Shown here: piece after piece, positions 10,641-50,565 of the stretch
How the letters are laid out: each line of letters opens with the position of its first letter
Position numbering within the stretch: the first letter of the stretch is position 1
DNA from: Allostreptomyces psammosilenae
GTDB lineage: Bacteria; Actinomycetota; Actinomycetes; Streptomycetales; Streptomycetaceae
Assembly (NCBI RefSeq): GCF_013407765.1
Contig: NZ_JACBZD010000002.1
Span: forward strand, 258,001 to 322,000
Reading direction: 5' to 3'
Length of the DNA stretch: 64,000 nt
The notes under the pieces: generated by a model
What the model saw: only the letters and a program-made list of their open reading frames with translations
What the model was told of the DNA's origin: nothing
Database searches by the model: none
Made by a program: the position numbers and the translations under genes

Positions 10641-11288
10641 GGGCGTCCTCGGGGTGTTCGGTGGGTGGGGAATCGCGTGGTGGACGGGGGCGGGGCCGGG
10701 TGGCCGGGCCTGGTCCCGCCGGGGGAGTGGGTCATCCCTGCGGGGAGGAACGGGCCCGGCCGGCTTGATTCCCTTGTCCCGTAGGCGGCCGGCTCCTCCG
10801 GGTCGGCTTCTTTGCCTCGTAGGCGGCCGGCTCCTCCGGGTTGACTCCCCGTGTCCCGTAGGCGGCCCGCTCTCCGGCTTGATCGTGGACGTTCGAGAGT
10901 TATCCACAGGCTGGGAATGGGGGGCTGCGCCGCACCGAAGCACCGTGGAATCGTAGAAATAGGGGGTCCCCCTGGGGCTCCCTACGGGTGTTGCTCTTGC
11001 GGCTTCTGCGCCATGTGCGGTGCGTGGTGCGGGAGGCGCTGGAGTGGTGCAGGGGCCAGGGGCCAGGGGGTAGGGGCCAGGGCGGAGCGGGGCGGGCTCG
11101 GGGCATCTGCGGGGCCGAGGGACCAGTGCGGCCAAAGAAGAGCAGGCTCGGAGGCTCGGCGGGGTCGGGGTGGAGCTGTCAGGGGGAGCGAGTATGGTGG
11201 CGGGCCATCCTCGCCGCCAGGGCCGGGGTGCGTGGCGCGGCGCGCCGCCGTCAGGAGAGCACTCGCGGCTGCCGGCGGACCGCTTTCC
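10641..11288. repeat. Intergenic region with short tandem repeats and dispersed element copy A
   Basis: No convincing gene in about 650 bases. Three imperfect copies of GTAGGCGGCCGGCTCCTCCGG, spaced about 39 bases apart, begin near 10780, 10819 and 10858. Immediately after them is one copy of the dispersed element described in the findings: TTATCCACA at 10900-10908 and AGGGGGTCCCCCT at 10961-10973. Confidence 0.6.
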
Positions 11289-37365: not shown

Positions 37366-37621
37366 CGGGGGCCGCCCCGGGGGACGGGCCGGAGAAGCCG
37401 GGAAGAGCAGACGACCCGCGGGCCACTTCCCGGTATGCCAGCACACGGCTGTCGTACCGGGCACCGGAAGGACGACCGGTGAGCCCGCGGGTCGGGTGAC
37501 TGCTGTGGATTCGCCCGGGTTCCACTACCCGCGACCGTGTCTGAACCCCGAGGGGAACGGCCGCCGCGGATGATCCGCAGGGCAGGGGCGACCCTAGCGG
37601 GCAGCCACCTCACGAGTCCTG

Positions 37622-39124
37622 TCAGTGAACACTGGTCGGACCACCTCCCTTCTTCGCTGCCACAACAGTAGGCGTGCCCCGCCGGCACGGGCAAAGGGTT
37701 TTTCTGTGGCCGCCGCCACCCCCTCGGCGGAAGGCCGCCAGCGTCCCCGCCAGCACGGCGAGCAGGACTGGCAGCCACAGCAGCCGCGCGGCCACCCACC
37801 CCGGCGAGTCGGGATGCCCGAGCAGGCCGGACAGCAGCCAGCCGGCCGCCTCCGCCCAGGGAGCCGTCCCTGCCCCTGGGGCCGTGGCCGCCCAGGTACC
37901 CGCCTCCGCCCCGGGGTCCGTTCCCGCCGCGGCGGCGTCCAGCAGCCGGCTCCCCCGGATGGCGAGGTGGAGCCCCAGCGTGGTGAGCAGCAGCGCCGAC
38001 TGGTGCCACAGGAACACCGGCATCGCCAGCAGGTTCAGCCCGGCCACCGGCGCCCACACCAGCGGTCGCCGCGACACCCGCTCCAGCCGCCGCCAGGCCA
38101 GCAGCGCCAGCCCCACCTGGGCGCAGCCCAGCGCCACGGCGAACAGCGAGGGCGGCGCCAGGTTGGAGCGGTCCGCGCCGGTCACGCCGACCGCGCTGGC
38201 CGGGTAGCCGGCCCGGGCCACCAGCAGGGCCATCCCCGCCGCGCCGCCGACCAGCAGCGCCACGCCGGCGCCACGCCGGCCCGGTCCGGTGCCCAGCCGA
38301 CCCTCCCGCACCGCCACCCCCAGCAGGAACGGCACCAGCCACCCCGCCGGCACCTGGAGCCAGCCCAGCACGGCGACCACCGCCGGCGCCGCGGCGTCCA
38401 GCGCCTCGGAGCCCGGTCCGAAGGACGCCCAGTCGCCGAGCGCCACCAGGGCGGCGGGCGGCACCGCGGCCGGCGCGCCCCACCGGCGGACCGCCGCCAG
38501 CGCCACCGGGGTGGCCGCGGTGAGCAGCGCGTACACCGCCAGGAACCACAGCGGGGCGGTCACCAGGCGGGCCACCGTGCCGGCCGTCGCGCCGTCCAGC
38601 ACACCGGTGGCCAGCAGGGTGCCGAGCAGCACGGCCCACAGCGCCGTGGGTCCGGCCGCCGGGCCGGCCAGCCGCCGCAGCCGGGAGGCGATCCAGGGGC
38701 GGTGCCGCACCCCCGCGCGCAGGCTCGCGGCGTTCGCCCAGCCGCCGGCGAAGAAGAACAGCGCGAGGGTCTGCAGCCCCCAGCTCACCGGTGCCAGCTC
38801 GGTCAGGTGTTGCAGCGGGCTGGCCACGGTGAGCGGACCGGCGGCGCCGTCGGCTCCGGCGTGGGCCGGCACCAGCGCGGTGACGCACCAGTGGCCGAGG
38901 ACGACGCCGCAGATGGCGAGCGCGCGGACGGCGTCGACGGCCCGGCTCCGGTCGGGCGGGGTGGCGGCCTCGATCCGCCGGGCGGCGCCGGCCAGGCGTC
39001 CCGGTGCCGCCCGTCGCGGCGCCGTCGCCCCCTCGGCGGATCCGGCCCGGTGGACCGGGTGGTTGCGGTGGTCCCGATGGTTGCGGGGGGCCTGGTGGTT
39101 CGGGTGCTCCTGGACGCCGCTCAC
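37622..39124 (-). CDS. Acyltransferase-3-type integral membrane protein
   Basis: 500 residues from a GTG at 39124 that overlaps the upstream hydrolase stop by 4 bases (GTGA). The His-rich N-terminus (NHQAPRNHRDHRNHPVHR) is unusual. The membrane part starts at about 65 with SRAVDAVRALAICGVVLGHW, the opening motif of acyltransferase 3 proteins; about ten helices follow, with LALFFFAGGWAN and PVFLWHQSALLL, the conserved later motifs. It probably transfers an acyl group from inside to a surface glycan, lipid or metabolite. Co-translated with the DUF1023 hydrolase. Confidence 0.85.
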   Translation of the reverse strand: MSGVQEHPNHQAPRNHRDHRNHPVHRAGSAEGATAPRRAAPGRLAGAARRIEAATPPDRSRAVDAVRALAICGVVLGHWCVTALVPAHAGADGAAGPLTVASPLQHLTELAPVSWGLQTLALFFFAGGWANAASLRAGVRHRPWIASRLRRLAGPAAGPTALWAVLLGTLLATGVLDGATAGTVARLVTAPLWFLAVYALLTAATPVALAAVRRWGAPAAVPPAALVALGDWASFGPGSEALDAAAPAVVAVLGWLQVPAGWLVPFLLGVAVREGRLGTGPGRRGAGVALLVGGAAGMALLVARAGYPASAVGVTGADRSNLAPPSLFAVALGCAQVGLALLAWRRLERVSRRPLVWAPVAGLNLLAMPVFLWHQSALLLTTLGLHLAIRGSRLLDAAAAGTDPGAEAGTWAATAPGAGTAPWAEAAGWLLSGLLGHPDSPGWVAARLLWLPVLLAVLAGTLAAFRRGGGGGHRKTLCPCRRGTPTVVAAKKGGGPTSVH

Positions 39125-40907: not shown

Positions 40908-41120
40908 CGGAGTTATCCACAGGTGGGGAGAGGGGGCTGTTGCCGGCTCTCTGGCTCGTGAGAGTGTGGATTCAGGGGGGCCCACCCGGGTCTCCCTGGC
41001 GGTGGTTGAGGGTTCATCGGAGTTATCCACAGGTGGGGAGAGGGGGCTGTTGCCGGCCTTCTGGCTCGTGAGAGTGTGGATTCAGGGGGGCCCACCCGGG
41101 CTTCCCTGGCGGCGGTTGAG
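40908..41120 (+). repeat. Tandem 103-bp duplication, dispersed element copies B1 and B2
   Basis: Two copies (40908-41010 and 41018-41120), 110 bp apart, differ at about five positions. Each begins CGGAGTTATCCACAGGTGGGG and contains a second block TTCAGGGGGGCCCACCCGGG; TTATCCACA is at 40913 and 41023. No gene fits. The same layout occurs at 10900 and, inverted, at 50446. Confidence 0.9.
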
Positions 41121-50179: not shown

Positions 50180-50370
50180 CCGCGGCCTTCCTCCCCTGGC
50201 CGCTGCTGTTCGCGGAGACCGCCGCCGTTCGGGGAGGCATCCTGACCGTTGCCTGCCAGGTGGCCTTCCGGCCTCTGCCCTGTCGCCCCCTGGCTGCCGT
50301 GCCGCCACCGGTGAGGCCGCTGGTTCGCGTCAGGGCCATGCCAGGTGTTGTTGCCTGATCAACCACTTGC

Positions 50371-50446
50371 TCTGGGGGGACCCCCTGTTTCAGGATCCCA
50401 CGAGGCTGTTACCGAGCGCAGTCCCCCACGTGCCGCCTGTGGATAA
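50371..50446 (-). repeat. Dispersed element copy C (inverted)
   Basis: Read on the minus strand: TTATCCACAGG from 50446, then GGGGGACTGC, and AGGGGGTCCCCCC from about 50386, with 61 bases from the first T to the second G-run. This is the same layout as copies at 10900 and 40913/41023. Confidence 0.75.
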
Positions 50447-50509
50447 CTTTGGGCAGGTGCATGACTCTGGAGGTCCGCACGGCGATGATTGCCGGCCGTC
50501 CGCACACGG

Positions 50510-50565
50510 CGAGGGGCGGGTGGCTCTTCCTCCCCGTTCTGGGAGGAAGAGCCACCCGCCCCTCG
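50510..50565. terminator. Very strong hairpin downstream of the Prim-Pol gene
   Basis: A perfect 25-bp stem (50510-50534 with 50541-50565) around a 6-base loop. It is one of the longest in the window and lies 40 bases beyond the Prim-Pol gene stop. Confidence 0.9.

Follow-up and report, generated by a model that had tools for sequence, protein, structure and literature searches.

A DnaA-box-like head followed at a fixed distance by a G/C-run tail recurs in the 64-kb stretch of DNA analysed here (the window, C2:258001-322000), and this raises the question of whether the copies belong to a genuine dispersed element and what such an element might do. The window comes from a 6.65 Mb Streptomycetaceae genome with 74% G+C, assembled in two contigs (C1 and C2).

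Copies of the element in the window

All four copies named in the original prediction are real, and exact matches to TTATCCACAGG are found in the window only at 10900, 40913 and 41023 (+) and at 50436-50446 (-). Copy A is a whole element of about 95 bp at 10898-10993 (+), reading AG-TTATCCACAGG ... TACGGGTGTTG (profile match at C2:268895+, E 7e-14); it belongs to subtype 2, and its right end is common to other copies of that subtype. Its DnaA box, TTATCCACA (10900-10908), runs on as GG to 10910 and is followed by the middle block GGGGGGCTG (10919-10927), which is kept in the copy alignments, by an extended -10-like site, TGGAATCGT (10946-10954, with T-15, G-14, A-11 and T-7), and, where transcription is predicted to start, by the palindrome GGGGGTCCCCC (10962-10972), 62 bases from the first T of the head. 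Immediately upstream of copy A, at approximately 10777-10885, lie three imperfect tandem repeats (cgtaggcggccggctcctccgggt).

Copies B (40911-41009, +) and C (41021-41119, +) form a tandem pair with a 110-bp period. Both have exact head matches with DnaA boxes at 40913-40921 and 41023-41031, the extended -10-like site TGAGAGTGT at 40959-40967 and 41069-41077, and the tail GGGGGGCCCACCC at 40975-40987 and 41085-41097. The tail that had been proposed for all copies is correct for copy A and not for this pair, where GGGGGGCCCACCC takes the place of GGGGGTCCCCC.

Copy D is a whole element of subtype 1, about 120 bp long, at 50328-50448 (-), recovered by the covariance model at C2:308320-308454 on the minus strand with 128 bits. 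It has an exact head match with the box TTATCCACA at 50438-50446, the extended -10-like site TGGGATCCT at 50392-50400, the palindrome GGGGGTCCCCC at 50375-50385 and, at 50328-50343, the right-end motif TGGCATGGCCCTGACG, which is confined to subtype 1. One of its blocks, previously given as GGGGGCTG, actually reads GGGGGACTG. A near-perfect long inverted repeat, gaggggcgggtggctcttcctccc ... gggaggaagagccacccgcccctc, adjoins this copy at approximately 50511-50564 and resembles a terminator.

Copy number and subtypes across the genome

A genome-wide search, put forward at the outset as the test that could refute the element, found many further copies. The head plus palindrome has 34 exact matches, compared with none for the reversed control, TTATCCACAGG occurs 163 times (once reversed) and AGTTRTCCACAGG 172 times (never reversed), counts that exclude chance; the subtype-1 covariance model returned at least 150 matches. 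These searches confirm a short element dispersed amid unrelated flanks. The family comprises at least 150 intergenic copies of three subtypes, several of them in tandem arrays. The original prediction had overlooked the subtypes, the arrays and also the extended -10-like site, which lies between its blocks.

Subtype 1, to which copy D belongs, is the commonest; at about 120 bp, with the kept right end TGGCATGTTCCTGGC at a fixed distance, it exceeds the 74 bp originally assigned to the element. Subtype 2, which includes copy A and the B/C pair, runs on as AAGGGGGTCCCCCTTCGGGCCCCCTACGGG-TGTTG or as GGGGGGCCCACCC...GGTTGA..TTCACC. Subtype 3 is a tandem unit of 74-78 bp, CCCYCTTGYGC-N18-CTACCCCTGG..ACAAGGGGGCGCGGA-GTTATCCACAGG, with mutually complementary C-run and G-run blocks, and several of its arrays terminate in a head plus CCCYCTTGCG. 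Units in tandem arrays measure 75-111 bp, and arrays account for a minority of copies. Two GGGGGTCCCCC palindromes lacking an upstream box and followed by TATTTCCAC lie 237 bp apart in C1:4000001-4400000 (minus offsets 92421 and 92658), and are perhaps a further subtype.

The right-end motif was also considered in its own right. As a free-standing motif it was rejected, with 22 loose matches against 9 for the reversed sequence and the intergenic ones lying mostly inside elements. The best copies of the subtype-1 right end TGGCATGTTC (e.g., 50328-50343 (-) in the window) agree with the AdpA consensus TGGCSNGWWY at nine of its ten positions (PMC4285127). Since position 5 is A in 39 of 39 copies, where the consensus needs G or C, an AdpA site was rejected and is kept as a lead only.

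Constraint on the DnaA box

Statistics were taken from 2.06 Mb of contiguous stretches, 80% coding, with coding calls from a simple purpose-written gene finder. A profile built with the head left out, run on this unselected sequence, recovered 53 copies, and every one carried the box. TCCACA was invariant (318 of 318 letters), and 16 of the 477 box letters deviated, 14 at position 3 (G in 13, T in one) and two at position 2 (both C); DnaA boxes of different bacteria vary at these same positions (PMC4285127, PMC3583192). The box is TTATCCACA in E. coli and TTGTCCACA in S. coelicolor (PMC4285127), and the consensus in one Streptomyces oriC is [T/C][T/C][G/A]TCCAC[A/C] (PMC3583192). In this genome the oriC region with dnaA lies at C1:2.89 Mb, and its boxes between dnaN and dnaA, TTGTCCACA and TTATCCACA, have the same GG/GC 3' flank as the elements, whose 9-mer fits the actinobacterial DnaA box (TT[A/G]TCCACA or close). 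Two opposed family copies lie roughly 3 kb away from oriC, on the far side of dnaN (C1:2884289 (+) and 2884602 (-)).

The rest of the element has drifted much further: over 44 variable columns, the median pairwise identity of subtype-1 copies is 0.36, where composition predicts approximately 0.31. A neutral fossil repeat would not show such constraint on the box beside near-chance columns. That the core stayed fixed while the rest drifted suggests that the element still does a job, possibly one tied to the timing of chromosome copying. Each element has one perfect box, and the letters flanking the 9-mer, AG on its 5' side and GG on its 3' side, are likewise kept, as are other blocks; something besides DnaA may therefore be recognised. 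The comparison was made within one genome, where a box kept through the element's own copying would look the same as one kept by selection on the host.

A promoter-like core

In the element the box is followed by a G-run block, then by CTGCGC as a weak -35-like sequence and by an extended -10 (TGn-nAnnnT); the predicted start carries a G-run/C-run palindrome. Because the predicted start falls on this palindrome, the centre of the DnaA box is placed at approximately -57. T-15, G-14, A-11 and T-7 are present in 53 of 53 aligned head-blind copies. The 53-copy model had included the promoter-like region, so the test was redone from boxes alone: a scan for TTRTCCACA gave 97 boxes, 83 of them with a G-run 54-74 bp further on, and in 66 of these 83 the G-run was preceded by TGnnAnnnT, an extended -10 by sequence (TGn-TAnnnT, or TG with A-11 and T-7), where 1.2 were expected after shuffling. 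The remaining boxes with a G-run were 15 of subtype 3, which departs from the extended -10 with TAnnCCTG and one extra base, and two others. Position -12 is mostly G in this genome and T in copies from Actinokineospora.

Genomic location and orientation

The element keeps to intergenic DNA: on C2, 35 of 35 occurrences of TTATCCACAG are intergenic, and in the 2.06 Mb TTATCCACA lies outside predicted genes in 64 of 64 cases (the reversed 9-mer occurs once). Convergent gene pairs are enriched for copies (21 of 81, for 13% of intergenic length) and divergent regions are under-represented (13 of 81, for 31%). Relative to the downstream gene, 36 copies have the same and 45 the opposite orientation, and given this lack of preference a promoter of neighbouring genes was rejected. 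The copies also show no replichore polarity of the kind known for KOPS.

Searches for mobility and RNA structure

An origin as a MITE remnant, one of the options raised originally, agrees with the lineage-specific amplification, while the expected marks of transposition were not found. The element boundaries, AG...TGGC[G], have no terminal inverted repeats, and inspection of 39 copies revealed no duplicated flank that would indicate target-site duplication. A Y1 transposase/RAYT gene (PF01797) is absent from the genome, with positive controls. DUF222/13E12 mobile HNH genes were considered since boxes of a similar kind lie upstream of them, and a DUF222 gene (PF02720) is likewise absent from the genome. 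A plasmid search gave no match to the element; viral contigs gave two, and the one inspected was AT-rich and unlike the element.

The suggestion of a small structured RNA found no support. RNAalifold found 0 compensatory pairs in the element alignment, and a helix scan over 38 copies detected no general helix. Rfam gave no match to the element; its sole match in the window, located elsewhere, is the actinobacterial sRNA Ms_IGR-5 at 37406-37658 (-), which scores 73 bits (cut-off 45).

Occurrence in other genomes

Our relatives panel comprised 60 genomes, all from outside the genus. The covariance model, which the original prediction had proposed as a check, had no match in any of 149 other Streptomycetaceae genomes. 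AGTTRTCCACAGG occurs at most 20 times in each of 197 other genomes of the class (3-18 times in Streptomyces), against 172 here.

A species-level scan located the head plus palindrome also in Paractinoplanes, Actinokineospora and Goodfellowiella. The composite was present in 7 of 395 genomes of the class sample, with 9 and 7 matches in the best genomes other than this one, and the head-to-palindrome distance in other families is mostly 62-64 bp. In copies from Paractinoplanes and Actinokineospora the palindrome is preceded by GGTAGAATGG or GTAAAATGG, with TAGAAT or TAAAAT on this upstream side, and followed by CTGGGAGCGGCGGGC; GTTATCCACAGG occurs 80 times in Paractinoplanes lichenicola and 29 times in Actinokineospora enzanensis (controls 0). 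The design recurs in other families of actinobacteria, at low copy number, either as one old element or as convergent designs.

Origin and possible function

We favour, tentatively and at a little under even chances, a short interspersed repeat, strongly amplified in this lineage, that has retained as its core a module binding DnaA and resembling a promoter. Of the options originally offered, DnaA binding is the best supported on sequence grounds, given the retention of the 9-mer in the head-blind set. We infer that DnaA would bind the high-affinity-type box TT[A/G]TCCACA, centred about 57 bp upstream of the predicted start, at each of at least 150 intergenic copies; jointly, the copies would act as a chromosome-wide sink altering the amount of DnaA that reaches oriC, with a possible effect on replication timing, and locally bound DnaA could gate initiation of a short non-coding transcript at the palindrome. 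The single box per element, the kept flanks and other blocks, the indifference to gene orientation and replichore, and the misfit of subtype 3 count against such a module.

The second-ranked reading is a real though lesser possibility: the element would be a selfish miniature repeat, similar to MITEs, REPs or MIRUs, and would need the box and promoter-like core for its own copying by a putative machinery. The excess of AGTTRTCCACAGG here over the rest of the class, the empty covariance search in the family, subtypes with their own right ends, tandem arrays of 75-111 bp units, and the strictly intergenic, convergent-enriched and divergent-depleted distribution all agree with it; the missing inverted repeats, target-site duplication, RAYT and DUF222 genes and plasmid match do not, and old selfish copies should lose the box, yet no copy has lost it although the variable columns are near chance. 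An amplified-repeat origin and a present role as a DnaA site are compatible and do not exclude each other.

Other readings are far less probable. A multicopy gene for a small structured non-coding RNA would account for the fixed internal spacing and for a promoter-like core with no consistently oriented downstream gene; with no covarying helix, no Rfam match and different sequences downstream of the predicted start in each subtype, we consider it improbable. Slightly less credible still are terminators or insulators formed by the G-run/C-run palindrome: the enrichment between convergent genes and the several alternating G- and C-runs of subtype 2 would suit them, but they leave unexplained the invariant box and -10 letters 50-60 bp upstream, and divergent genes flank 13 of the 81 copies. 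Nothing beyond the high G+C content favours a chance pairing of DnaA boxes with G-runs; it is refuted by reversed controls of 0-1 and the 53 of 53 head-blind copies, and its probability is negligible.

The DnaA-binding module could be extended, as an unlikely conjecture, to a network of DnaA-gated intergenic non-coding starts that would couple the state of replication initiation to transcription, with copy number tuning the DnaA supply. The element would then be an ancient actinobacterial one expanded here, in view of the spacing and core that several families have in common.

Relation to known systems

In E. coli, datA and DARS each occupy one locus, at which several DnaA boxes accompany IHF/Fis sites. 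The present copies resemble them as non-coding DnaA-box sites away from oriC, and differ in being more than 150 loci with one box each instead of a multi-box cluster. Mycobacterial MIRUs resemble the present family as short units scattered between genes and in part arranged in small tandem arrays; what sets the element here apart is its different sequence, with a DnaA box and an extended -10. Putative mobile promoters, a concept reportedly treated by Matus-Garcia and colleagues in 2012, share with our family a promoter-like sequence repeated in the genome, whereas the copies here are not oriented to downstream genes.

As far as they are described in the accounts of initiator titration in E. 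coli (PMC10977104, PMC12371093), the titration boxes are similar in that many dispersed high-affinity-type boxes outside oriC could count or absorb DnaA; unlike those described there, the box here sits in a lineage-amplified, repeated element of 75-120 bp with fixed spacing and a promoter-like core. REP/REPIN sequences and MITEs (PMC2817692, PMC3116915) also have more than 100 short, lineage-specific intergenic copies, whereas here there is no RAYT, REP hairpin pair or terminal inverted repeat. A motif search of the open-access literature, with most subscription papers outside its scope, found no description of the element, and the design of box, -10 and palindrome that actinobacterial families share suggests a class of intergenic elements not yet described.

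If DnaA binds these sites, the organism would naturally possess DnaA-binding modules in greatly amplified number, and the family would be a case of a repeat in which selection holds on to the binding site as the remaining sequence diverges. DnaA titration would then be directly testable in a filamentous actinobacterium, a setting where replication control is poorly understood.

A separate site was seen in a Streptomyces-like genome (G009; L165, ~1500), where AGTTATCCACAGG lies upstream of a gene whose start resembles recA. The same upstream region contains a TTGTCAGTG-N8-TAGCGT promoter, which we take to resemble RecA-independent damage promoters.
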